From: Nitrospira sp.
GTDB lineage: Bacteria; Nitrospirota; Nitrospiria; Nitrospirales; Nitrospiraceae
Reading direction: 5' to 3'
DNA: 64,000 nucleotides
Assembly: GCA_018242665.1 (NCBI GenBank)
Contig: JAFEBL010000017.1
Coordinates: 248,001 to 312,000 of the forward strand
Part shown: piece by piece, positions 14,732-46,361 of the stretch
How the letters are laid out: the number at the start of each line of letters is the position of its first letter
How positions within the stretch are numbered: the stretch's first letter is position 1
Position numbers and translations under genes: made by a program
The notes under the pieces: generated by a model
The model's database searches: none
Told to the model about the DNA's origin: nothing
Seen by the model: the letters and a program-made list of their open reading frames with translations, nothing else

Positions 14732-15694
14732 CTACTCCTTCGTCAAGGACACCTTTGCTCCCGTGTCTTGCTTGGCATCACGCGCACAACGGAAACCCAT
14801 CCAATTGATCTTGGTGGTTGGATCGGTCCCGTTCCGCATCGCGACCCGCATGGTGGTCGTGCTATCCATCCACCCACCGCCGCGAAACGCCTTCTGCGAG
14901 CCGGAGTCCGGTCCTTGCGGATTCCGGCTCGGCGCCGTCTTGTAATAGTCCTGGTCATACCAATCATTGACCCACTCGGACACGTTTCCTAGGGTTTGAT
15001 ACAGCCCATAGGGGCTCACGGCGTTGTCGTATTTGTCGACGGAGATGAGCGGCGGATACATCAGCAGCCGTTCCGGTCGGTCACGGACCGGACCAGACAG
15101 ACCGGTGCGGCCAAAATTGGCGCGGCTCAATCCTGCTGATTGGTTGCCCCAGGGATTCAAACGACCATCCTCGCCGCGAGCTGCCTTTTCCCACTCCGCT
15201 TCCGTCGGCAACCGCATGCCGGCCCACTTGCAATAGGCGGCGGCATCGTACCAGCTGACGTGCATAATCGGATGGTTCGCCATCGACTCCTGGAAATTCC
15301 CCCCGTCATACCGCCAGTCCAGTTGCGGCAATTTGCCGGTCGCCAGAATGTACTTCAAATAGTGCAGGTTGGTGACCTCATATTTATCGATCTCATAGGC
15401 ATCCAGATACACCCGGCGCTGCGGCATCTCGGACCGATAGGCCACACGATCGGTCTTCTTGTCGCTGCCCATGATGAACTCGCCGGCCGGAATCAACACC
15501 AGCTCTTCCTTGAATTTCATCGTCGCCACGCGCTGTTCCGCGAGGGCTTTTCCTTCCGGCGTCCACTCGACGATGATGTCCTGCGTGTCCAGCGCACGTG
15601 CAATCGGAATCAGTGCGAACAATGCCGCTCCGATCACCAGTGCTTGCCCGGCGCGTTTGAGAGCCCGTGACACTCCCCTTCGCTGTTTTCTCAT
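14732..15694 (-). CDS. secreted SUMF1/FGE-fold protein (non-catalytic)
   Basis: 320 residues, start supported by GAGGAGGCCG ahead of the ATG. Signal peptide or anchor at about 12-34 (AGQALVIGAALFALIPIA), then a formylglycine-generating-enzyme fold from about 62: LIPAGEFIMGSDKK, YEIDKYEVTNLHYLKY, HVSWYDAAAYCKWAGMRLPTE, the WEKAARGEDGR stretch, LGNVSEWVNDWY and the end MGFRCARD. These are the conserved structural motifs of the fold. The pair of active-site cysteines that bind copper in true FGE (an RxSxC-like segment before GFRCA) is absent: the corresponding region reads TTTMRVAMRNGTDP. It is therefore likely a binding or structural protein in the periplasm. It is the last gene of the run cupredoxin, SUMF1-fold, SUMF1-fold downstream of the multicopper oxidase. 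Confidence 0.88.
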   Translation of the reverse strand: MRKQRRGVSRALKRAGQALVIGAALFALIPIARALDTQDIIVEWTPEGKALAEQRVATMKFKEELVLIPAGEFIMGSDKKTDRVAYRSEMPQRRVYLDAYEIDKYEVTNLHYLKYILATGKLPQLDWRYDGGNFQESMANHPIMHVSWYDAAAYCKWAGMRLPTEAEWEKAARGEDGRLNPWGNQSAGLSRANFGRTGLSGPVRDRPERLLMYPPLISVDKYDNAVSPYGLYQTLGNVSEWVNDWYDQDYYKTAPSRNPQGPDSGSQKAFRGGGWMDSTTTMRVAMRNGTDPTTKINWMGFRCARDAKQDTGAKVSLTKE

Positions 15695-15727
15695 CTTCGG
15701 CCTCCTCTGATCATGCCGTCATCCCCT

Positions 15728-17882: not shown

Positions 17883-20800
17883 TTACTTCATGGCTGTCGG
17901 AATCGCCTGCGCCCCAGGCTGCACCTCGGCTTGACGTGCACCTGATCCGCTAGCGCTGAGAGGCTGAATTCGCGAATCGCCTGTCGGCAACACGCGCATA
18001 TAGCCCCACTGTCCGGACTGCGTGTAGGGCAGCCGAGCATTCGACCAGACGAAGTCACCAACCTGACGATACGGTCCGCCCGCACCGCCACGGATGAAGA
18101 CATCGAGGACTTCAGACCCGGCGTATTCCACCACGCTGATCATATCCGCACCCGGCATGTACGGTTCGATCGGCCACTCGTGGCCCTCGACGCCGAACAT
18201 TCCGTTCTGCTCGCTGTTCGCCCCGATCACGTGGATCCGGACGGCATCTCCCGCATGCGCCTCGATCAGAGGCGTGACGGGATCTTCGGGCTTATCCACC
18301 GCACAAGGCTGGAAGATTTTGCCCAGCGAGCACCCTTGCTCTTCGCGGAACTTGTACGGTTCAGCGCGGTAGTTCACCGACGTCAAACCGGCCACGTTCT
18401 GCACGTACGGCATGAACGCGGTGCCGATGATGTTGTCCTCATCTTGGAAGAAGAGGGCCACATCACGATAGTTCCGCTTGCCGGCGTTTTCAGTGAGCGT
18501 GGTGTCGACGATCACGTCGGCACGCCACGTGTTCTTCTGCGACACATCGGCACCGGTGACTGGGTCACGATACTGTGATCCCTTCGGTCCGATGACGATC
18601 GCGCCGTACAATCCATTGCGTGGATTGACGACGACGTTGCCGCCATCCCACACCAACGACGTCGTTTCCTTGTTCAAAGGATGCGCGTAGTAGGTATAGG
18701 AACGGCTCTCGCCCGGCGCCACGGTCTGGTCGCCGGCATTGTTGCCGACGTTCAAGCCCTGGCTGTCGCGCGGATCGAAGGCCAGGCCCGGCGCAAAGAA
18801 GGATGCCCGGCTCGCCTTCATCTTGTTCTTCAGATTCACCTTGATGCAATCACCCAGATTCGCGCGCAGCGTGAGCGGATTCGGCATCACGTTGCCCGCC
18901 ACAGTCGAAGCTTCCTCCTCCAGCGCGAAGATCTTGCCCTCCGGCATGGTCATTTCGATCTTCCGCTCGAAGTCCACTTCGATCGCATCCGGGGCCTTCG
19001 GATTGAGCTTCATCGGGCGATCCAACGCCACGACGTTGAAGCTCTTCACCGGGGCATCCGACGGACAGACGGAGTTTGGTGTCGCTGGGATCCCGAGGGG
19101 ATTGGTCCCCCTGGGCAACGGCATCAAATCCGCCACTGGCTTGTCGAGCACACGGAGAATGCCCCATCCACCTTCGGCGAAGTGTGACGTTCTGCCGTTG
19201 AAGTGAATGTAGTCGCCCGGCATCCCCTGGAATCCTCCTGCCTTGGTGACGAGGTCATACCGCTCGGCGATCCCGACGTGAATCGAGTTCTTCCGGTTGG
19301 CATCCGCCGCATACCGTTCCGTGAGGAAGGTATGGCCGGCGATCGTCCAGACATGGGATTCGTTCATCAGCTGGTGCAACAGGCGGAACACCATGGTGTC
19401 GCCCGTGTACGCCCGCAGGAGCGGCGTGCCCGGATCACCGTGAACCGCGCTGCTGAACAGCTTGGAGGTGTCCGGATTGTTGGACAGACGTTGCGCAAAC
19501 GGGGCCGCGCGGAAGTTGAAGCCGCTACCGGTCGTATGCGTTCCGCCGTTGATGTACTTGTTCGGCGCGTTCAAGATCTTATCCGGCATCTGGAACGACA
19601 CCGTCTTGCCCGCTTCCAACGCCACTTCGATCGGCTGTCCAGGAGGATTGCCGGCTTCGATGACGTTGACCGTGTGCGGCACCGTGTCGTGGATGGAAAC
19701 CATCAACTCACGGAAGCTGCCGCTGACACCGGCTCCGATCGGCTCATTGCTGTGGATGTCCGCGATCGGCCCGCTGTAGACCAGCTTGCCGTTCTTTGGA
19801 TCATGATAGGTGGATCCGAATGGCTCCACGATCGTCACGCCGAACCCGCCATGGGGCCAGGTCGTCGCGCCGAACGCGTGGTCATGCCAGAACACCGTAC
19901 CCATATCCACGTCGACCCACCACCGATACCGCACGAACTCCGGTGACACGAGGTCGCCCACCGGATGGCTGTGCTTCAGTGGCTTGAAGAACGTGACCAC
20001 ATCACCCTTGATCTCTTTCACACGAGCGACTTCCTGACAGCTCTTATCCCGCGGCAGTGAGGCCGCCGGATCGTTGCCCTTCTCCAAGCAATCCATACCG
20101 ACCATCAATTCGGTGTTGGTATGGAAGGCCGTGGCGCCGGGCGCCATCTGGATCTTGATCGAGGTCGCACCGGCTTTCGCTTCGCCGGTCAACTTCGCCA
20201 CCATCGGAGCCGGCAACCCATGCTTGGTCTTTTTCCCCCACATGGTGAACGGCCGGACCGACATTTCGTACTCCATCCCGGAGATGACACCGTCGGAATT
20301 GCCGGTGTCGAACTGGAAGAAGTGGGGATGGATGTTGATCTTGGACGACTGGAAGTTGGTGTAATCGTCGTCGTCCCACTCGCTGGTGAGCAACACGTCC
20401 ACGCAGTCATACACGTTGGCGCGAATGACGGCGGGCAGTTTCAGATCGTCATTGGCTCTGGTCAAACGCTCTTCTTCGTGAAGGACGTAGATCAGACCAT
20501 CTTTGTCCACCATGGCCGGCTCTTTGCCTTGCTTCTTGGCAAGGGTGATCGGCATACGGACAAAGTGAATGTTGTAATGCTTCCGATTGGCATTGTCAGG
20601 GCACAGGCTCCAACGGCCCTGTTCGCCCGGCATGGCCGGCTCTGACGTACGCTCACCGTTGGCATCCTGGTGGATCGGCTCCAGCCAGGGCGCACCGCTG
20701 TGGTTCGCCGAGAACGGCACACGTTTGCCGAAGTGCGGCTTGAACAACGGCCAGGCCATTTTTCCCGTCGTTGGATCGAACAGGATCGCCGGTCTGGTGC

Positions 20801-22820
20801 TGTCATCCCACTTCACTGCCCACGGATACTTTGGATTCTGGGCCGTGCTCTCCCGCTCGCCGCGGGCGATGTTGCCGTCCCATTTCCAGTCCCACACCGT
20901 GGAGTCATAGGCCATGATCTGGCCCTTCTCATCACCGGTGTGGCCCGGTTGACCCTGAGCCGGCACGAACATTTCCACCCAATCCTTGATGCTCACGATG
21001 ACAGGATCGGATTTCCAATTCGTCTTTTGGCTCTTGTCGACGATCTTGAAGGTCTTGCCAAACCAATCGACCGTTGTGCCGATCAGCTTGTCAGAGGACA
21101 CGCCGAGCTTCATGCGGCCCTTGCGGTCAGGCAATTCCGCCAGATCCGGCATGATATCGGTGTGGGCATTGCCAGCCTGCAACGTGTTGTAGAACCGGCC
21201 GTACCCCCACATGCCCGCCACATAGTGGTGCGCAACGTGGCAGTGGTAGAGGAATTCGCCGGCCAAGTGCTGACAGCCACCGCCGCCGCATTCCGGCTCG
21301 AGGTCCAGGGCTTCCGACGGACCGATGACTTCGACGTCAACACGATCCGACTTGGTCCGAACGACCGGATACTTCACCGGTCCATCCTGACCTGCCGCCC
21401 AGAGGGTGCTCATCTCGGTGCCCGGGCTCCGCTGCCAGCGGATGGTTCCGCTGTGCGGATGGTGGGAGTGGAACACTTCAGATCCACCGTGCACCACACG
21501 CCATTTCACCGGATCGCCCAAGTAACCGCGGGCAATCGTGGTGGGTGGGTCACCGAAGGTGTAGGCGCTGTAGGCCAGCGACTCATCTTCGAAACCAAAG
21601 TATTCGTGCTGCAAATGCATCTGATCGATGCCGAACGGCTCGCTGCGATAGTTCAACGCGCGACCGCCCGGACGATACGCATCGGTCAGCGGATCGCGCT
21701 GCGGCAAGAAGTCACCCTTCTTGTTCAGCGGACGGAACGCTTCATCGCCGATTTCGTGATAGAACAACACGAACTCGCGGAAGTCCGGTCCCGATCCGTT
21801 GTCGATGTTGACCTGCCACCCGCTCGCCACCGGCTTGTCCGGTCCGCTGCCCAACGAATCCACGTAGGTCGAACCCTTGGGCTCGACGATGAATGCGCCG
21901 AACAGACCGAGCACGGTCAATTCGCGGTCATGGCTCCAGGAGTGGAACTGCCGCACGCCTTCCTGCATGTTCGGATGGATGTACCACTCGAACTCCTGCG
22001 CTTTACCCGGCGAGACGATCGCATCCGGGTTCGTGGTCGTCGCCGGCTTGCCGGTCGAGCTCACGATCATGCTGGAGGCCTGGATGAACAAGCTGCCATC
22101 CTCGGCTTCCATCTGGTTGCGGAGCGTCATCTTCATGCAATCGCCCTGATTGGCGCGAATCACCAACGGCTGAATCACATCACCCTGCAAGCCGGTGGTC
22201 ACCGCACCCGGATCAAAGCCTTCCTTCTCACGCGAGGCCTTGTTCTTCTCTTCTTCCGCACGCGCTTTCGGGAGATCCTCCGTCAGGACGTACATGTAGC
22301 CGGGATAATAATCGAGCCACCGGTTGAGCGTGATCTCGATGTTGACCATCGAGACGTCGTACTTCTTGACGGGTGCACCGGCTGGGCACTTCCCGCCGTT
22401 CGTCAAGACCGGTTCACCTTTCGACGAATCGGATGCCAGCAGGAAACTGCTGCCATCTTGCCCCATATACTGGTGCATCATCGACATTTCGTTGAATGCA
22501 CCGGAGGTCTGCTGCGCCTTGGCATCGCTGCCCGCCTGCTGCTCCAGCTTCTCCATCAGGCGATGGTGCTGCATCTCCATTTTTTCCGCATTGCCCGCTC
22601 GACCCTCGATGGCGTTTTCCACCACCGTTTGTCCCTTCAGGGTCTGAGTCCAACCCGGCATGGCGACCGGCGTCGCATGCCCGTCATGCGACTGATCGCC
22701 TGGCCCAGCCGCGAATACCCACGGCGCGGCAAGCAAACTGCCCGAAAGCAGCGCCGCCTGCAGGCTCAGCATCGCTTTGCGACTGATGCGCCTGCGTTTT
22801 GACTGCACTGAAGACCTCAT
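17883..22820 (-). CDS. giant multicopper oxidase 1 (six cupredoxin domains)
   Basis: 1645 residues, three to five times a normal multicopper oxidase. Signal peptide with MLSLQAALLSGSLLAAPWVFA. Three related segments begin with a CPxxAPxK-type motif (near 142, 738 and 1252), each followed by an RANxxDC motif such as PLTLRANLGDCIKVNLKN, implying three two-domain units. Copper motifs: FHSHHPHSG (about 453), HCHVAHHYVAGMWG (about 525; the full type 1/type 3 motif with axial Met), NIHPHFFQFD (about 830) and FWHDHAFG (about 977). The order is permuted relative to laccases, where the HCH motif comes last. Large, permuted oxidases include the Mn(II) oxidases MnxG and MofA, so metal oxidation is one hypothesis; the substrate is unknown. 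It is periplasmic or exported. AAGGAGGGAGGCCG precedes the start. Confidence 0.9.
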   Translation of the reverse strand: MRSSVQSKRRRISRKAMLSLQAALLSGSLLAAPWVFAAGPGDQSHDGHATPVAMPGWTQTLKGQTVVENAIEGRAGNAEKMEMQHHRLMEKLEQQAGSDAKAQQTSGAFNEMSMMHQYMGQDGSSFLLASDSSKGEPVLTNGGKCPAGAPVKKYDVSMVNIEITLNRWLDYYPGYMYVLTEDLPKARAEEEKNKASREKEGFDPGAVTTGLQGDVIQPLVIRANQGDCMKMTLRNQMEAEDGSLFIQASSMIVSSTGKPATTTNPDAIVSPGKAQEFEWYIHPNMQEGVRQFHSWSHDRELTVLGLFGAFIVEPKGSTYVDSLGSGPDKPVASGWQVNIDNGSGPDFREFVLFYHEIGDEAFRPLNKKGDFLPQRDPLTDAYRPGGRALNYRSEPFGIDQMHLQHEYFGFEDESLAYSAYTFGDPPTTIARGYLGDPVKWRVVHGGSEVFHSHHPHSGTIRWQRSPGTEMSTLWAAGQDGPVKYPVVRTKSDRVDVEVIGPSEALDLEPECGGGGCQHLAGEFLYHCHVAHHYVAGMWGYGRFYNTLQAGNAHTDIMPDLAELPDRKGRMKLGVSSDKLIGTTVDWFGKTFKIVDKSQKTNWKSDPVIVSIKDWVEMFVPAQGQPGHTGDEKGQIMAYDSTVWDWKWDGNIARGERESTAQNPKYPWAVKWDDSTRPAILFDPTTGKMAWPLFKPHFGKRVPFSANHSGAPWLEPIHQDANGERTSEPAMPGEQGRWSLCPDNANRKHYNIHFVRMPITLAKKQGKEPAMVDKDGLIYVLHEEERLTRANDDLKLPAVIRANVYDCVDVLLTSEWDDDDYTNFQSSKINIHPHFFQFDTGNSDGVISGMEYEMSVRPFTMWGKKTKHGLPAPMVAKLTGEAKAGATSIKIQMAPGATAFHTNTELMVGMDCLEKGNDPAASLPRDKSCQEVARVKEIKGDVVTFFKPLKHSHPVGDLVSPEFVRYRWWVDVDMGTVFWHDHAFGATTWPHGGFGVTIVEPFGSTYHDPKNGKLVYSGPIADIHSNEPIGAGVSGSFRELMVSIHDTVPHTVNVIEAGNPPGQPIEVALEAGKTVSFQMPDKILNAPNKYINGGTHTTGSGFNFRAAPFAQRLSNNPDTSKLFSSAVHGDPGTPLLRAYTGDTMVFRLLHQLMNESHVWTIAGHTFLTERYAADANRKNSIHVGIAERYDLVTKAGGFQGMPGDYIHFNGRTSHFAEGGWGILRVLDKPVADLMPLPRGTNPLGIPATPNSVCPSDAPVKSFNVVALDRPMKLNPKAPDAIEVDFERKIEMTMPEGKIFALEEEASTVAGNVMPNPLTLRANLGDCIKVNLKNKMKASRASFFAPGLAFDPRDSQGLNVGNNAGDQTVAPGESRSYTYYAHPLNKETTSLVWDGGNVVVNPRNGLYGAIVIGPKGSQYRDPVTGADVSQKNTWRADVIVDTTLTENAGKRNYRDVALFFQDEDNIIGTAFMPYVQNVAGLTSVNYRAEPYKFREEQGCSLGKIFQPCAVDKPEDPVTPLIEAHAGDAVRIHVIGANSEQNGMFGVEGHEWPIEPYMPGADMISVVEYAGSEVLDVFIRGGAGGPYRQVGDFVWSNARLPYTQSGQWGYMRVLPTGDSRIQPLSASGSGARQAEVQPGAQAIPTAMK

Positions 22821-22885
22821 ATGTCGGCCTCCCTCCTTGTAATCCCGCGCCCTTCCGCGGGAGTGAATAAAAAGCGTGGTCGTGT

Positions 22886-22966: not shown

Positions 22967-23044
22967 GCTGGTGAAGGATGTCCTCAATGTTTGAGGGAGC
23001 AGGTCATTCGGAGGCCGGTCCTAATCACCCGCGCCTTCACCAGC
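22967..23044 (-). promoter_or_regulatory. structured 5' leader RNA of multicopper oxidase gene 1 (candidate new cis-regulatory RNA)
   Basis: Read on the minus strand. P1: GCUGGUGAAGG (23044-23034) pairs perfectly with CCUUCACCAGC (22977-22967). Inside are P2 (23029-23002), a hairpin whose inner stem GGA/UCC closes a CCGGCC loop, and P3 (22996-22982), CCUCAA-ACA-UUGAGG. A three-way junction results, with ACCUG joining P2 to P3. The stem begins two bases after the transcription start predicted from the -24/-12 promoter. The same architecture, with compensating changes in P2 and P3, lies before the second oxidase gene (44450-44380). I know of no described class with this core. About 146 bases separate it from the start codon. 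Confidence 0.75.
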
Positions 23045-23057
23045 ACCCCGGCACATC

Positions 23058-23071
23058 GCAAGTGATATGCC
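23058..23071 (-). promoter_or_regulatory. sigma-54 (-24/-12) promoter of multicopper oxidase gene 1
   Basis: Minus strand GGCATATCACTTGC: GG and GC elements are ten bases apart, as RpoN requires, with TTGC at -12. The consensus base before GG is A instead of T. Predicted +1 near 23046, directly before the leader stem. Genes for two likely RpoN activators (23391 and 28571) lie upstream. Confidence 0.7.
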
Positions 23072-23102
23072 TATGGAACGGCATCGGGGAATCGCAATAT
23101 TA

Positions 23103-23390: not shown

Positions 23391-24800
23391 CTAGTGAATC
23401 TCGAATTCGTGCAGCTTGTTGTAGAGACTAGCACGGCTGATTTTCAGCAGACGCGCGGCCCTGACCCGGTTGCCCGCGGTCTGTTGCAGCGCCTGAAGAA
23501 TTCGAGCACGCTCAGCCTGCCTCGCCGCATACCGCCCGATCGTTCGGAGATCGGTCGCTTCGACATGGGACCCGACCGCGACCAAGTCCGCGCAAGTCAA
23601 TTCTTGGTGAGTGGTCGTGACTACCGCACGCTCAATGTAGTGCTGCAGCTCGCGGACATTTCCCGGCCAGGGCGCGGCGGTTAAGGCACGCATGGCCTCC
23701 TCGCTGACCTGGCGAAGCTCCTGGCGATGCCGCTGGCAGGAGTCGGCAATAAATTTGTCCACCAGCAACGGAATATCGGCCCGTCGTTCCCGGAGCGGAG
23801 GCAAATGAACGGGCAAGACAGCGAGACGGTAATAGAGGTCCTGCCGGAAGGCTTTTGCCTTGACCAAATCGACCAGGTCTTTATTGGTCGCCGACACGAC
23901 GCGGACATCGATCTTAATCGGTTGGGTTCCGCCGACCCGCTTGATCTCACCCTCCTGGAGCACCCGGAGCAATTTGGCCTGGAAGGTCGGCGTGGTATCG
24001 GCGATTTCATCCAAAAAAATCGTGCCGCCGTCAGCTTCTTCGAACAGCCCGGACTTGGCCCCTGAGGCACCGGTGAACGCGCCTTTGACATGGCCGAACA
24101 GTTCGCTCTCCAGCAATGTCTCGGGTAAGGCCCCGCAATCCACCACGACAAAGGGCTTGTCCCGGCGGTAGCTCGTTTGATGGATGGTTCTGGCGACCAA
24201 TTCTTTTCCCGTCCCGCTTTCACCCTGAATCAACACGGTCGCCGAACTGTCCGAGACCAATCGGATCATGTCAAACAACTGGTGCATGATCGGACTGATT
24301 CCTACCAAGTCCCCTAGTCGCGACTCGGTTCGCTCAGGGCCGGGGCCGGAACGATTCAGCTTTGCGGAGGGCACAGCGAGTGGGAACGCGGTCCCGTCAG
24401 GCTGCTTGTGAAACAAGACGAGTACCGAGCCGACTTCACCCGTTGCCGCCATCAAGGGGAACGCCTGATGCATGCCACAAGCGGTACCGTCGCCGGAACT
24501 ATTGCAGGCAACTGTGCGAACTTCGCGCGTCTCGAATACCGACTCGGCTGGGCAGGTCCCGCAGGGGTCGGTCATCTTGACGAAGGCTTGATAACATTTG
24601 GCCGGCCGGTCGGCTGGCGCCTCCCCTTTTCCCTTTGCCCATGCAGCGTCGTTCGCATAGATCACATTCTGCTCTCGATCCATGACGGCGACGCGATCGG
24701 TCAGTCCATCGGCCAATTGCCGAAGGGCTTCCAATCGAGCGGCTAAAATGGGGTCGGCGAATGGGGAGAGGGATGCTGCTGGTGTATGAGATCCGGCCAT
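23391..24800 (-). CDS. PAS-AAA+-Fis sigma-54-dependent transcription activator
   Basis: 469 residues with AAGGAG ahead of the ATG. PAS-like sensor (about 20-150), AAA+ domain (about 165-400) and a Fis-type helix-turn-helix at the end ([20 protein letters not shown]). Walker A GESGTGKE, the sigma-54 contact loop GAFTGA and Walker B GGTIFLDE are all intact, so it can open RpoN promoters. The PAS part is unusually rich in cysteine: [29 protein letters not shown], which suggests a metal, haem or Fe-S ligand or a redox switch. It has no receiver domain, so it senses directly. It lies upstream of the promoter of multicopper oxidase gene 1 on the same strand and is its most likely activator. Confidence 0.9.
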
Positions 24801-39463: not shown

Positions 39464-42400
39464 CTAGCGACCGGCTTCAGCTTTCGACACCACAGGGATC
39501 ACCTGGGCCGGAGCTGATTCCTCCGCCTGCTGCGTGGCCGGCGCCTGTCCGCTCAGCGGCAGAATCGCGCGGCTGTCACGGTCTAGCACCCGCAACATGC
39601 CCCAGTGTCCGGCATCCAGATACCCCGGCCGCTGATTCAGCCAGATGTAGTCGCCGGGAATGCCATTCGGCCCTCCGGCGCCGCCGTTCAACCAGGCATT
39701 GATCACTTCGGTGCCACCGAACTCCATCGTGCTGACGAGATCCGCACCGCTCATATAGGGCTCGTGCTTCCACTCGTGACCAGACACGCTGAAGAGCTGC
39801 ACCTGTTCGCTGAACGCGCCCAACACATGGACCACAACTTGGTCGCCCACATGGGCCGCGATCGTCGGCGTGACGGGCGTATCACCCGCTTTCACGCAGG
39901 CAAACACGTCGCTATAGGCACAGCCCTTTTCGACACGATAGTCAGTCGGTTCGGACCGATAGTTGACTGCCGTGACACCGGCCACCTTTTGGATGTACGG
40001 CATGAAGCTGGTGCCGATGATGTTGTCCTCGTCCTGGAACATCAACGCGAACGATCGGTAGTTCTGCCGGGTTTCGTTCCCCGACAGGCTCCGGTCCACG
40101 ATCACGTCTGCCTTCCAAGAACTCTTTTGGGCCAAGTCCTCACCCGTGATTGGATCCCGGTACTGCGATCCCTTCGGACCGATGATGATCGCTCCGAACA
40201 GACCGTTTCGCGGATTCGCAATCACATTGCCCCAGTCCTGAATCAAGGCGGCGTTTTCGCCAAACTCAGGATGAGCATAGTAGGTGTAGGTCCGGCTTTG
40301 ACCCGGCGCCACGGTCTGGTCGCCCGGATTGTTGCCGGCATTGATGCCCATGGAATCCTTTGGATCAAAGGCCAGATGATCCACATGGAATCCCGCACGA
40401 TCTTTGGCCATCTCATTCTTGAGATTGACCTTGATGCAATCGCCGACATTCACATGCAACGTCAACGGGCTGGGCTCGACATTGCCCGAAGCCACTTTGA
40501 CCTTCTCCCCTTCGAGGACATACATCTTGCCCGTTTCATTCCCCAGCACCATCTTCCGTTCCAGGTCCACTTCCATCACGCCCGGCGTTCCCTTGTTGAA
40601 GCGGATCGCCTTGTCGATGGCCGACACATTGAAGGCCTTCAGCGGCGCGTCCGCCGGACAGACCGATTTCGCCGCCTGTGGGATGTCCTCCCGGCCAGGC
40701 AACGGCTTCAACGTCTGATCCGGTGTATCCTGTACCCGGAAGATTCCCCAGCTGCCTTCCGCAAAGTGCGAGGCGCGACCACTGTAATACAGGTAGTCAC
40801 CCGCCATTTGCTGCGGCCCGCCCGCAGCTGGGATCGCGGCGTCATACCGTTCGCCGATCACCACGTGCAACGAGCTTCGGGGAATGGAGTTCTTGCTGTA
40901 CCGCTCCATCGGGAACCAGTGTCCACTGATGTGCCACGAGTGGACTTCGTTGGCCGATCCTTCGATCAGCCGGACCACGATCGGATCACCCAGATAGGCG
41001 CGCAAGATCGGCGTCTCGGGATCTCCGTGCACACGGCTGCTGAACAACAGGGAAGGATCTCCGTTGTTCGCCAACCGCACCGACAACGGCTCAACGCGCA
41101 TGTTGTAGCCGCCGCCCGTCGTCGCTTCGCCGCCGTTGAGGAAGCCCATCGGCGACGTGTTCAGCTTGGCGGGATAGACCGCAGACGGCGTGCCATCCAC
41201 CGAGATGGCGCCCACGCGCGCTTGCGGATTGTCGGACGTGATCAACTCGGCCGTCCGCGGATTGGAGTCCATGACCTGCGTCACGATCTCGCGGAACGAC
41301 CCCGTGATATGCGCCGACACCGGTTCGGTCGTGTGGATGTCGGCCACAGGGCCGCTCCGCAGTTCCTTGCCGGTCACCGGATCATGATACGTGGAACGGG
41401 GCGGCTCGGCGATGAAGGTGGAATAGAATCCATGTCCCCATCCATCCAAGCCATACACGTGATCGTGCCAGAACGTGGTGCCGAAATCCGCATCCACATA
41501 CCAGCGCTCACGAATCCACTCCACCGACACAATTTCGCCCTTCTTGTGCGCATACTTCAGCGGACGCTCGAAGGTAATGGTATTGCCTTCGATCTTGCTG
41601 ATGCGCGCCGACTCGAACCCACCGACCTCGTCCATGCCCACGCCCAATTCCGTCTTCACGTGGTAACGAGAGGCATCCTTCACCGTGAGGGTCGTGGCCC
41701 CCTTGGCAACATCCGCCTGAATAGAGGTATTGGCGGGAACGGGCATTCCCTTGCCGGGATGCTCGTCTTTCAGAATCGCGAACGGCCGCAACGACATCTC
41801 ATACGAGAAGCCGATGATCGGACCGTCAGAAGCCTGCGTGTCGAACTGGAACATGTGCGGGTGCAGGTTCGTCTTGCTGGAGAAGCCCTGCCGCTCATCG
41901 TCCTTCAGTTCGCTCTTGTAGACCACATCGACACAATCCTGCACATTACCGCGAATGACCAGCGGCATCTGTTTCGCAGGATTCTTTCGGACTTCTTCTT
42001 CTTCCTCATGCAGCACATACAACAACCCATCCGGATCGACGATCGCCGGAGTCTTCGCCGTCTTGGACTTCAGCGTGATCGGCAGGGTAATCGCATGAAT
42101 GTTGAAGTACTTCACCGGGGCACCCTCCGGACACAGACTCCAGGGGCCGTTTTCGCCCGGCTTGGCCGGTTCCGTTGAATTGCTCCCGTCGTCGCGGCGA
42201 TGGATCGGTTCCAACCAGGGCGCTCCGCTGTGGCTGGGTGAGAACGGCACGCGCCGTCCCAAATGTGGGCGCAGCCATGGCCAGGCCACCTTTCCGCTCT
42301 TGGGATCGAACAGAATGGTCTGCCGTTTCCCCGGAGTCGCCGACTTATAATTGACCCACTCGTACGAGGTCTCGGGCTCGCTCAGGGCTTTCTGCCCGTC

Positions 42401-44224
42401 CCAGGCCCAATCATTCACCGTCGCGTCGTAGGCCAGCGTCTGCTCCTTCTCGGCATTCTTATGGCCCGGCTTGCCTTGCGGTACCAACTGCATTTCAACC
42501 CAGTCCTTCAAGGACACCTTCGCCGGGGTGGCATTCCAGTTGGTCTCGTCCTTCGTGACCTGGAATTTCTTGCCGCCATACCAGTCCACGGTGGTGCCGA
42601 CGAGCTTGTCGCTTCCAATGCCGGCCTTGATCTTGCCGACACGGTCAGGCAACTCGACCAACGGCTTCATCACATCGGTCTGCGAGCCTTCCTGCTGCAG
42701 CGTGTTATACACGCGCCAGAATCCCCACATCCCCGTCACATAATGTTGCGGAATGTGGCAATGGAAGACGAACTCACCGGCGAGTGCCTGCAGGCCTCCC
42801 GATCCGCCTTCGATCACCTGATCGTAGATCTCCGTCGGACCGATGGATTGCACATCCAATCGGTCCGAGGTATCGGCAATCAGCGGGAACTTCACCGGCC
42901 CGTTGGCCGACGCGGCGAAGTCTAACCGGCTGTTGCCCGGTTGTCTCGCCCAGCGGATGGATCCGCCGTGCAGATGGTGGGAGTGGACGATTTCCGAACC
43001 ACCGGCCATCCGGAATTTGGCCGGGTCGCCTAAGTAGGATCGCGGAATCGTGGTCGCCGGGTCGCCGAACGTATAGGACCCATATCCCATCGATTCATCG
43101 GCATAGAAGCCCATATGGGCCTGCAATTCGAGTCTGGTGCCGTGCGGCTCGCTGCGATAATTCAGCAACCGCGCACCAGGCCGGTAGGAATCGGTATGGG
43201 GATCGCGCTGCGGCAGCATCTCCCCTTTTTTGTTCAACAACCGAAACGCTTCGTCTCCCGCCTCATGATAGAAAATCGCAAACTCGCGGAAGTCCGCGCC
43301 GCTCGGATCTTCGATCATCGCTTCCCACCCGCTGGCCATGGGCTTTCCGTCGAACGGGCTCAAATAACGGGAGCCACGAGGCTCCACGACCAACATCCCG
43401 ATGAGGCCCTGATTGAACTGATCACGTGACGCATGGGACCGGAAGAAGTGCGCGCCCTCCTGCGTCTCCGGCTTGATGTACCACTCAAACGTCTGGCTGG
43501 CGCCCGGCAACACGGTCGCGTCCGATGTGGACGGCGTCGCCGGCTTGCCCGTGGAGGCCACAACCATCGACGAACCATTGATGATCAGGTTCGTCGGTTC
43601 TTCCGCCATCTCGTTCTTCAACGTCAGCTTGACGCAGTCGCCCTGGTTGGCGCGAATGACGAGCGGCTGAATGATGTCTCCCTGTAACCCATTGGAAACG
43701 GCACCGGGATCATTCTCTTTGTCGCGAGCCGCCTTGTTCGACGCCTCTTCAGCCCGGGCCTTTTCGACATTCTCCGACAACACGTACATGTAGCCGGGGA
43801 AGTAGTCGAGAAACCGGCTCAGGGTAATCTCGATGTTAATCGCCGAGACGTTGTACTCCTTCGTCGGCGCATTGGCCGGGCAACGCTGCCCGTTCGTGAC
43901 CGACACTTTGCTTGGATCCTCGGCCACCAGCAAGACACCTTGCTGCATCATGTGGCTGTTGGCTCCCGACGCATACCCTCCTTTTTGCCCCACAAACTCC
44001 TGCTGCCGCTTGACCTCGTCCATCATGCGGTCATGCAGCACCGACCCACCTTCACGGTAGATCACCTGCTCGGCCGATGCGGCACCGTCATCGCTTCCGT
44101 GACTGTGCCGATCGGCGGCGAGCCCTAACGGTGCTGCCAATAGGCTACTCGCGAGTAGCGCCATCGGCAGACCGGCCACTACGCGTTTTGCGTAGCGCTT
44201 ACGCCGTCCTCCCGTCCCTCTCAT
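39464..44224 (-). CDS. giant multicopper oxidase 2 (six cupredoxin domains)
   Basis: 1586 residues, homologous over its whole length to the protein encoded at 17883. Signal peptide GLPMALLASSLLAAPLGLAA. Three CPxxAPxK-led segments begin near 113, 697 and 1188 (CPANAPTKEYNVSAI, CPEGAPVKYFNIHAI, CPADAPLKAFNVSAI), each a pair of cupredoxin domains. Copper motifs: VHSHHLHGG (about 412), HCHIPQHYVTGMWG (about 486, with axial Met), NLHPHMFQFD (about 788) and FWHDHVYG (about 918). The order is permuted as in its paralogue. The third segment keeps the fold but no full copper motif. It is exported and likely oxidises a metal or small molecule; substrate unknown. AAGGAGGCC precedes the start. Confidence 0.9.
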   Translation of the reverse strand: MRGTGGRRKRYAKRVVAGLPMALLASSLLAAPLGLAADRHSHGSDDGAASAEQVIYREGGSVLHDRMMDEVKRQQEFVGQKGGYASGANSHMMQQGVLLVAEDPSKVSVTNGQRCPANAPTKEYNVSAINIEITLSRFLDYFPGYMYVLSENVEKARAEEASNKAARDKENDPGAVSNGLQGDIIQPLVIRANQGDCVKLTLKNEMAEEPTNLIINGSSMVVASTGKPATPSTSDATVLPGASQTFEWYIKPETQEGAHFFRSHASRDQFNQGLIGMLVVEPRGSRYLSPFDGKPMASGWEAMIEDPSGADFREFAIFYHEAGDEAFRLLNKKGEMLPQRDPHTDSYRPGARLLNYRSEPHGTRLELQAHMGFYADESMGYGSYTFGDPATTIPRSYLGDPAKFRMAGGSEIVHSHHLHGGSIRWARQPGNSRLDFAASANGPVKFPLIADTSDRLDVQSIGPTEIYDQVIEGGSGGLQALAGEFVFHCHIPQHYVTGMWGFWRVYNTLQQEGSQTDVMKPLVELPDRVGKIKAGIGSDKLVGTTVDWYGGKKFQVTKDETNWNATPAKVSLKDWVEMQLVPQGKPGHKNAEKEQTLAYDATVNDWAWDGQKALSEPETSYEWVNYKSATPGKRQTILFDPKSGKVAWPWLRPHLGRRVPFSPSHSGAPWLEPIHRRDDGSNSTEPAKPGENGPWSLCPEGAPVKYFNIHAITLPITLKSKTAKTPAIVDPDGLLYVLHEEEEEVRKNPAKQMPLVIRGNVQDCVDVVYKSELKDDERQGFSSKTNLHPHMFQFDTQASDGPIIGFSYEMSLRPFAILKDEHPGKGMPVPANTSIQADVAKGATTLTVKDASRYHVKTELGVGMDEVGGFESARISKIEGNTITFERPLKYAHKKGEIVSVEWIRERWYVDADFGTTFWHDHVYGLDGWGHGFYSTFIAEPPRSTYHDPVTGKELRSGPVADIHTTEPVSAHITGSFREIVTQVMDSNPRTAELITSDNPQARVGAISVDGTPSAVYPAKLNTSPMGFLNGGEATTGGGYNMRVEPLSVRLANNGDPSLLFSSRVHGDPETPILRAYLGDPIVVRLIEGSANEVHSWHISGHWFPMERYSKNSIPRSSLHVVIGERYDAAIPAAGGPQQMAGDYLYYSGRASHFAEGSWGIFRVQDTPDQTLKPLPGREDIPQAAKSVCPADAPLKAFNVSAIDKAIRFNKGTPGVMEVDLERKMVLGNETGKMYVLEGEKVKVASGNVEPSPLTLHVNVGDCIKVNLKNEMAKDRAGFHVDHLAFDPKDSMGINAGNNPGDQTVAPGQSRTYTYYAHPEFGENAALIQDWGNVIANPRNGLFGAIIIGPKGSQYRDPITGEDLAQKSSWKADVIVDRSLSGNETRQNYRSFALMFQDEDNIIGTSFMPYIQKVAGVTAVNYRSEPTDYRVEKGCAYSDVFACVKAGDTPVTPTIAAHVGDQVVVHVLGAFSEQVQLFSVSGHEWKHEPYMSGADLVSTMEFGGTEVINAWLNGGAGGPNGIPGDYIWLNQRPGYLDAGHWGMLRVLDRDSRAILPLSGQAPATQQAEESAPAQVIPVVSKAEAGR

Positions 44225-44379
44225 ACACTGGCCTCCTTACTCTGCCGCCGCCGATGTTCGGCAGCGGGCTGAGATGACCTTGCTCCCTCTCGACCCATCG
44301 CAAACTTTCCGGCCTTGTCCCGTCATTCCTGCCCTGTACGGGGGACCTCAACCCGTCACCTCGGAACACGAATAAGGTA

Positions 44380-44450
44380 CTGGTGAAGGGTGGTCCCACA
44401 TGAGACACAGGTTACTCGGAGGCCGGTCCGATAACCGATCCCTTCACCAG
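44380..44450 (-). promoter_or_regulatory. structured 5' leader RNA of multicopper oxidase gene 2 (same class as 22967-23044)
   Basis: Minus strand. P1: CUGGUGAAGGG (44450-44440) pairs perfectly with CCCUUCACCAG (44390-44380). P2 (44436-44410): GGUUA/UAACC with one bulged G, then UCGGA/UCCGA around a CCGGCC loop. P3 (44406-44393): GUCUC-AUGU-GGGAC. ACCUG joins P2 and P3. Compared with the first leader, P1 and the P2 core are nearly identical, the lower part of P2 and all of P3 differ in sequence but still pair. The stem starts about four bases after the predicted transcription start. About 155 bases follow before the start codon. Confidence 0.75.
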
Positions 44451-44465
44451 CGAACCTGCACTTCA

Positions 44466-44480
44466 GCAACATCAGTGCCA
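44466..44480 (-). promoter_or_regulatory. sigma-54 (-24/-12) promoter of multicopper oxidase gene 2
   Basis: Minus strand TGGCACTGATGTTGC, a close match to the RpoN consensus TGGCAC-N5-TTGC with GG and GC ten bases apart. Predicted +1 near 44454, immediately before the leader stem. The RpoN-type regulator genes at 44805 and 46362 lie upstream. Confidence 0.82.
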
Positions 44481-44804: not shown

Positions 44805-46019
44805 TTATAGGTGATGGAGTCGTTCGGGAAGGTGTTCGACGTGAATGACGGCGCTCTCGGACAAGGCGGCGGCCCGCTCAATCACATGCTGCAGTTCTCG
44901 CACATTGCCGGGCCACGCATAACGATGCAGCAATGCCATGGCTTCCAGCGACACGACGCCCTCCTGCGGTGGGACCTGCCGTTTGCGCCGCAAGAACGAC
45001 TGTAAAAAGTCTTGTGCGAGCAGCACGATGTCTTCTCTGCGGGCTCGCAGCGGCGGCAGGGTGATCGGAATGACTGTGAGGTAGGCGAGCAGGTCTTGGC
45101 GAAACTCTCCGGCACCGGCGGCGCGAGAGAGATCCTGAGTGGACGAGGCGATAACGCGCACATCGACCGGCAGGAATCGACTTCCACCGACTTTGCGGAA
45201 TCGCTGCTCCTTCAAGGCACGCAACAATTTGGCCTGAAGGCGCAGGCTGAGCCCACCGACTTCATCCAAAAATAACGTACCGCCGGCAGCTAACTCGAAC
45301 AGACCCAGCGTGGCGCCGCTTACCCCGGAGGACGGCTGGGGCTCGCAGCCGAACAGTTCCGTCTCCAGCGCCGCTTCCGTCGCCGCCAGGCAATCCAACG
45401 GCGCGAACGCTCGCCGGGCTCGAGCGCTACGCGCATGGATGGCGCGGGCAATACATTCTTTCCCGGTCCCGCCTTCGCCGGTGATCAAGGCCGCGGCCTC
45501 AGTCGGCGCCACACGCGCCACCAACTCACGGACCGCACAAATGGCGGGGCTCGTCCCGACAATTTCCTTCAGCATAGCGCGCGACGGCCCGCGAGTCGGC
45601 CCTTGCCCACCAACAGCTAACGAGGAACGAACCGGTTCCGCCACAGAATCGATTTCTCCGAAGGCACGCCGAACGACGCCCTCGAGTTCCGCGCTGGTAT
45701 AGGGTTTGACGAGGTAGTCGAAGGCTCCACATCGCATGGAGGTCACCGCCGTCTGAATACTGGCATAGGCCGTCAGCAGGACTACCTGAATCGCAGGATC
45801 GACTCGTTTGATCTTTTTGAGTAACGAAATTCCGTCCAGCGCCGGCATGCGCAGGTCCGTCAGCACCAGTCGCGGGTGCTCGCGCTCAATCACCCCAATC
45901 GCGCGACTGGCATCCGGCTCAACGAAACAATCGTACCGGTGCCGAGTCAAAATGCGGCGGCAGTTTTCTAGAGCATCCGGCTCGTCATCGACGACGAGAA
46001 TTTTCCCAGGACCGTTCAT
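44805..46019 (-). CDS. NtrC-like response regulator lacking GAFTGA loop and DNA-binding domain
   Basis: 404 residues from the ATG at 46019 (GAGAGG just upstream); the frame is open to 46172. Complete receiver (VVDDEPD, VLTDLRMP, VKPYTS) and an AAA+ domain with Walker A GEGGTGKE (Ser replaced by Gly) and Walker B GGTLFLDE. In the place of the sigma-54 contact loop it reads CEPQPSSGVSGATLG, so GAFTGA is gone. The protein ends at EHLPERLHHL right after the AAA+ lid, with no Fis-type HTH. It cannot work as a normal RpoN activator. It may form mixed oligomers with, or inhibit, the intact regulator encoded next to it at 46362. It lies directly upstream of the oxidase 2 promoter. Confidence 0.87.
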   Translation of the reverse strand: MNGPGKILVVDDEPDALENCRRILTRHRYDCFVEPDASRAIGVIEREHPRLVLTDLRMPALDGISLLKKIKRVDPAIQVVLLTAYASIQTAVTSMRCGAFDYLVKPYTSAELEGVVRRAFGEIDSVAEPVRSSLAVGGQGPTRGPSRAMLKEIVGTSPAICAVRELVARVAPTEAAALITGEGGTGKECIARAIHARSARARRAFAPLDCLAATEAALETELFGCEPQPSSGVSGATLGLFELAAGGTLFLDEVGGLSLRLQAKLLRALKEQRFRKVGGSRFLPVDVRVIASSTQDLSRAAGAGEFRQDLLAYLTVIPITLPPLRARREDIVLLAQDFLQSFLRRKRQVPPQEGVVSLEAMALLHRYAWPGNVRELQHVIERAAALSESAVIHVEHLPERLHHL

Positions 46020-46361
46020 AGGCCTCTCGACACTGTAAAGAACACCATCGACCGACAGCGTCCGCAGCCTACCTCGGCGCGAACGCATACACAAAATGTT
46101 CAGCAATTTGTGTGCCCACTCGACGTCGCCGACATGCAGCCGGCAAGTCGTGGAAATTTCGATGACCGGCAACTCCGCGTTGCAGCGATCGGAAGGCTAA
46201 TGGGGAGTGAACGCCCCATCCTGCACCATCACAGCCCATGAATCATCTGTTTGGCGGATGAATTGAGGTGTCTAGCGAGGAAGACGGCTGGGGCGGACGC
46301 GCCCCATCGTGAAGAACATATCGGCGACCGCAGATACAACCCTTGATTTGGAAGAAGGGTG
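46020..46361 (-). other. spacer between two regulator genes, with hairpins
   Basis: About 340 bases. Near 46199-46216 TGGGG and CCCCA form a hairpin, and near 46289-46305 GGGGCG pairs with CGCCCC; both lie downstream of the intact regulator gene and could be terminators. The rest should hold the promoter of the degenerate regulator. The open frame extending that gene to 46172 has no ribosome-binding site. Confidence 0.4.

Follow-up and report, generated by a model that had tools for sequence, protein, structure and literature searches.

Qrr and GlmY/GlmZ are sigma-54-dependent small RNAs, and the seed of Qrr targets the ribosome-binding regions of other mRNAs. The SAM riboswitches SreA and SreB of Listeria are leader RNAs that also act in trans, and anti-Shine-Dalgarno sequestration is the principle on which translational riboswitches and RNA thermometers operate. 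Nitrospira are the main nitrite oxidisers in soils, waters and sewage plants, and in the literature that we searched, no regulatory RNA is described from this genus. We describe here a leader RNA found twice in the window, by which we mean the whole stretch of 64,000 nucleotides of Nitrospira DNA that was analysed, each time ahead of a giant multicopper oxidase gene. It probably represents a new family that acts by antisense pairing with the ribosome-binding sites of oxidase genes, mainly with that of a sister oxidase, D, in trans and more weakly with its own in cis. That this is a conserved structured RNA linked to sigma-54 is, judged on sequence, nearly certain.

The two copies, A and B, and their surroundings in the window are as follows:
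22967 to 23044, minus strand: copy A of the leader RNA, a three-way junction (P1 of 11 bp, P2 with an anti-Shine-Dalgarno loop, P3), identified by fold, homologues and covariation
44379 to 44451, minus strand: copy B of the three-way-junction leader RNA, identified by fold and homologues
23058 to 23072, minus strand: sigma-54 -24/-12 box of copy A, AGGCATATCACTTGC, with a predicted +1 at 23046
44466 to 44480, minus strand: sigma-54 box of copy B, TGGCACTGATGTTGC, with a predicted +1 at 44454
23391 to 24800, minus strand: gene shortly upstream of copy A for a sigma-54 activator (AAA+, Fis-type HTH), the likely activator
44805 to 46172, minus strand: gene shortly upstream of copy B for a sigma-54 activator with a receiver domain
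17883 to 22820, minus strand: giant multicopper oxidase A, 1645 aa, a distant MnxG relative
39464 to 44224, minus strand: giant multicopper oxidase B, of 1586 aa and with 52% identity to A

The minimum-energy fold of copy A is the three-way junction (-40.0 kcal/mol, z -5.6) and copy B folds into the same junction (-38.7 kcal/mol, z -5.0); for each copy, none of 200 shuffled sequences was as stable as the native one. P1 comprises 11 bp in both, the final pair of copy B being G-U, and the P2 core GGACCGGCCUCCGA is common to the two. P3 varies in length and sequence and is frequently capped by a GNRA tetraloop. The earlier note had drawn this junction for both copies, and sequence, positions and folds agree with it. 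It had also held that the lower part of P2 and all of P3 had changed while keeping their pairing next to a shared P2 core; this is correct for the core and for P3, but in the lower part of P2 the pairing is incomplete, and an irregular internal loop is present.

The position of the RNA relative to its predicted promoter is fixed. The predicted +1 lies two bases before P1 in copy A and three in copy B, within the two to four bases previously suggested. Among distinct A/B-type copies, a GG-N10-GC box that agrees with the consensus at 7 or more of 10 bases is found 12-16 nt before P1 (mode 14) in 78 of 78 loci, as compared with 4% in shuffled sequence, which places the predicted +1 2 to 6 nt before P1. 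Homologues of the sigma-54 activator next to copy A lie upstream in most loci having sufficient sequence. The region 3' of P1 is T-rich (43% T in 10 nt versus 18% further on), which fits termination at this point without proving it, and a terminator scan of the same region found no classical terminator. The preparation of a N. moscoviensis transcriptome discarded small RNAs, and the report does not mention a multicopper oxidase (PMC6606698).

The enzymes encoded behind the two leaders resemble MnxG, a manganese-oxidising protein that is likewise a giant multidomain multicopper oxidase. Oxidase A matches the MnxG structure PDB 9bxa with an E value of 1e-84; scores against the MnxG family NF041487 are 112 and 125 bits for A and B, far from its curated cutoff of 3100, and the two proteins are therefore regarded as only distant relatives of MnxG, known here from their sequences. 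In one genome (G021:C12:138416-143338), the oxidase A gene contains six in-frame TGA codons, a sign of decay or of an assembly error.

A covariance model built from copies A and B, with the weakest matches left out as noise (e.g. L086 at 25 bits), has matches in 78 of 121 related genomes and in 26 of 37 genera, counts that, like those below, concern related genomes and hence are not independent observations. A second model, built from 67 copies, matches 113 of 396 Nitrospirota genomes; among the matches listed, all belong to two families of Nitrospirales, f1 and f3, and an additional copy is found in family f2 (genome G085). A pattern scan of genome contigs likewise finds the element in Nitrospira and its relatives, N. 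defluvii (FP929003) and N. moscoviensis (CP011801) among them. Pattern matches outside Nitrospirota (Streptomyces, Blastococcus, Anaeromyxobacter, Pelobacter, Rhodobiaceae) fit the model unconvincingly and are thus taken as chance, and the viral contigs searched contain no copy. The element is confined to Nitrospirales, occurs mostly once per genome and lies nearly always 5' of giant MnxG-like oxidases.

The conservation of the fold can be read from the substitutions. When the copies are aligned to the model, each of the 11 P1 pairs shows changes on both sides, with 99.3% of cells paired. For the covariation test, 45 diverse copies were aligned with MAFFT, without fitting to the structure; in this alignment, changes on both sides are seen in 10 of 11 P1, 3 of 5 lower-P2 and 6 of 6 P3 pairs, and the covariation score is 0.424 versus 0.199 in shuffles, none of 500 reaching 0.424, while sliding the partners gives no more than 0.160. 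The apical hairpin, GGA-CCGGCC-UCC, hardly varies among homologues, so that its pairing is beyond the reach of covariation. Rfam (release 15) gives no match in the window at gathering scores and none for the diverged copies; the best relaxed match, nhaA-I at 12.2 bits on the other strand, is attributed to chance. The leader RNA is thus, as far as fold and alignment define it, a previously unclassified, structured and conserved family absent from Rfam. The earlier view of a structured regulatory leader at a predicted sigma-54 start, of no known class, is upheld by the structure, the significant covariation, the fixed position and the further copies in related genomes.

It is the apical hairpin, GGAcCGGCCUCC, that is near-invariant; P1 and P3 vary, and the junction and the internal loop do so freely. 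By its complementarity, the loop of this hairpin, GGACCGGCCUCC, is an anti-Shine-Dalgarno sequence, hereafter the seed. The seeds and their complements in the window are:
23010 to 23021, minus strand: seed loop of copy A, GGACCGGCCUCC, in the apical hairpin of P2 (exact match; near-invariant in homologues)
44418 to 44429, minus strand: seed loop of copy B, GGACCGGCCUCC (exact match)
22825 to 22832, minus strand: own ribosome-binding site of oxidase A, GGAGGCCG, complementary to the seed loop
44230 to 44236, minus strand: own ribosome-binding site of oxidase B, GGAGGCC, complementary to the seed loop
22886 to 22897, minus strand: mid-leader CGGAGGCCGGTC, complementary to the seed loop over 12 nt without a mismatch, an alternative partner in cis

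The seed is complementary to the ribosome site of its own gene over 7 to 9 nt. Part of this match is generic, since the CCUCC of the loop complements any Shine-Dalgarno sequence. Among 81 distinct oxidase leaders, 62 have GGAGGCC in their own site and 55 have GGAGGCCG there. As a control, GGAGGCC is found in 12 of 66 other genes with GGAGG, several of them within the same oxidase operon, and, of 454 AGGAGG-N4-9-ATG sites in the genome of the window, chance sites included, 36 run on into CC. A mid-leader complement of at least 7 nt is present in 47% of leaders versus 8% in shuffles and reaches 9-12 nt in some lineages; as a universal switch partner it was discarded, being strong in those lineages only.

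The longest complement lies on another transcript. A third oxidase in the window's genome, D (G000:C49:35634-40448), 68% identical to A, has a TTGACA (sigma-70-like) promoter and no leader RNA of this family. Its ribosome-binding site, AAGGAGGCCGGTCC-ATG, is the exact complement of GGACCGGCCUCC, and the site AAGGAGGCCGGUCC-AUG and the seed loop can form 12 continuous base pairs from the Shine-Dalgarno sequence up to the start codon. The computed pairing energy of the RNA is -30.4 kcal/mol with D and -19.2 kcal/mol with its own site, and D is, given also 12 bp against 7 to 9, the strongest predicted partner. The string GGAGGYCRGTCCATG has a single occurrence in the genome of the window and is present in 84 of 157 Nitrospirales genomes, the reversed-pattern control giving 0; where its positions could be compared with oxidase coordinates, nearly all precede an oxidase, most of them at D. 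Across 13 genera, compared in rows selected because they have the site, identity of the D leader is 24-28% between -160 and -18 and 85-91% in the final 14 nt. In the same class, outgroup oxidases of other families, which lack the RNA, have generic sites and no such complement.

Other genes carry related strings. The G024-type GGAGGCCAGTCCATG sites in the window's genus were rejected as targets, the one in G024 opening no gene; GGAGGCCAGTCCATG also stands 5' of a monothiol glutaredoxin-like gene (G318:C100:2421-2435, L313). Downstream of oxidase A, an FGE-sulfatase-domain gene (14732 to 15694, minus strand) has the ribosome site AGGAGGCCG (15692 to 15706, minus strand), and genes of about 310 aa in similar places (L041, L043, L045, L047, L055, L064, L066), putative equivalents, have GGAGGCCGG. 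It is possible that these genes are further targets.

The seed is also found outside the sigma-54-linked junction. In type C (e.g. L242-L257), the sigma-54 box is absent and the RNA precedes a giant oxidase of a third kind. In type E, seen in genus g1 (G001, G004, G007, G012, G014, G022), the hairpin AGGACCGGCCUCCU, single or as a tandem pair, sits in unrelated stems 5' of another oxidase, and the three-way junction is absent. This oxidase is 65-67% identical to A where enough sequence is available, the contig of G012 stopping too early. The type-E own site, GGAGGUAGGUGU, pairs poorly with the seed, and a target elsewhere is therefore favoured. By this recurrence, one candidate antisense hairpin is reused in at least two RNA architectures, its seed being portable. 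In the window's genus, single or tandem GGACCGGCCUCC hairpins followed by GC-rich hairpins (L302, L386, L387, L388, also L383, L384) precede another giant oxidase gene.

Matched changes of seed and target within one genome are seen in three genomes. The RNA GGACUGGCCUCC of G085 is matched by the site GGAGGCCAGUCC, the target there being a B/C-like oxidase and not D; the type-C RNA GGACUGGCCUCC of G059 is matched by the D site GGAGGCCAGUCC, and the type-C RNA GGACCGACCUCC of G395 by the D site GGAGGUCGGUCC. Only the site has changed in G029 and G072, whose D site reads GGAGGCCAGUCC (CCAGUCC) and which have no RNA carrying the matching U, and the prediction that a changed D site always goes with a changed RNA fails in these two genomes. 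Loss of the RNA offers a further comparison. Lineage g24 has lost the RNA and kept the sigma-54 box of the A gene; the D site, read as GGAGGCGGUUCC or GGAGGCGGUUUC, is broken in nearly all g24 genomes, and the own sites of oxidase A drift. G090, of genus g24, keeps a D-type site without a clear RNA and is one of four genomes (with G080, G083 and G116) in which the site is present and the RNA is not detectable; in G371, which has no RNA match, the D site nonetheless pairs. Conversely, several g6 genomes have the RNA but an imperfect D site (G070, G258, G280, G298, G353).

The same observations bear on other readings of the element. It could be a leader that acts in cis only, its loop pairing with the own site or the mid-leader copy and opening on a signal, the D site being what is left of a lost leader, or a strong ribosome site that the genes share. 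The frequency of GGAGGCCG at own sites, the excess of mid-leader complements over shuffles and the drift of own sites in g24, which lacks the RNA, all speak for such a leader. We nevertheless hold it unlikely: D, without a leader RNA, has the longer, perfect match of 12 nt in a leader that is otherwise random between genera, and type-E leaders retain the seed despite a poorly pairing own site. A riboswitch-type sensor of a metal, a redox state or a metabolite, acting on the oxidase in cis, is somewhat less probable still. The compact three-way junction at a fixed position at the start of the mRNA of a metal enzyme would suit it, and the earlier note had thought of a metal or redox sensor. This suggestion is not supported, as the junction and internal loop vary and the conservation resides in an apical hairpin that is an mRNA complement, that type E has without the junction and that has no Rfam relative. 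The near-invariance of the hairpin, its recurrence in type E and the 12-nt complement in the sister gene lead us to consider that base pairing with mRNA fits better than a ligand pocket.

A hairpin recognised by a protein, either CsrA/RsmA-like or an RNA-binding protein linked to the oxidases, would dispense with base pairing altogether. The repeated GGA-containing hairpins of type E are in keeping with it, as is a weak PrrB_RsmZ match (L026:1810-1951, minus strand, 26.6 bits, the gathering score being 44) that lies 230-370 nt further upstream than the element; the GGA, however, lies in the stem and not in the loop, and the exact 12-nt complement at D and the matched changes would be left unexplained, so that we regard this reading as improbable. 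The inverted-repeat ends and few copies per genome might even recall a REP or MITE-like DNA repeat that has no function as RNA, but the element is mostly present as one copy per genome in a fixed place between a sigma-54 box and orthologous genes, and it shows compensatory changes; this possibility can practically be set aside.

Antisense pairing with oxidase ribosome sites is thus the reading that we favour, and the following sequence of events is proposed. The element would correspond to about +3 to +80 of sigma-54-dependent giant multicopper oxidase mRNAs, with the hairpin loop GGACCGGCCUCC acting as a built-in anti-Shine-Dalgarno seed. In response to a signal that we presume to exist, a sigma-54 activator would switch on oxidase A or B, whereby the leader is made. 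The leader may then act free, as a putative small RNA released by termination or processing, or while still within the mRNA. Pairing in the cell with the D ribosome site in trans would block translation of D, and pairing in cis with the weaker partner, its own site (7 to 9 bp), may damp its own gene. Because the loop is an exact 12-nt complement of the sister's site, one oxidase message probably switches off its sibling. The broader proposition, that sigma-54-driven leaders with a portable anti-Shine-Dalgarno hairpin silence a sister oxidase in trans throughout the order, is one to which we give about even weight.

The RNA family spans the genus Nitrospira and its order, N. defluvii and N. moscoviensis included, and it yields a precise prediction, namely that the message of one oxidase pairs with that of its sibling at the ribosome site. 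If true, this would constitute a direct means of choosing between isoenzymes, and it could reveal the role of the giant MnxG-like oxidases.

Among known systems, the Nitrospira leader is Qrr-like in that it too combines a sigma-54 promoter, a structured RNA and a conserved seed complementary to a ribosome-binding region. It differs from Qrr and GlmY/GlmZ in that it begins a protein-coding mRNA, its free small form being putative, and in that the gene it precedes is paralogous to its main predicted target; Rfam showed no relation. With SreA and SreB it would share the use of the 5' leader of one mRNA to pair with the leader of another, as predicted here, but it has no known ligand aptamer, its seed is an anti-Shine-Dalgarno hairpin and its target a sister enzyme. 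As in the systems of anti-Shine-Dalgarno sequestration, the leader is complementary to a ribosome-binding site; in contrast to them, its strongest complement is located on another transcript, and its pairing in cis would take the form of a pseudoknot across P1.
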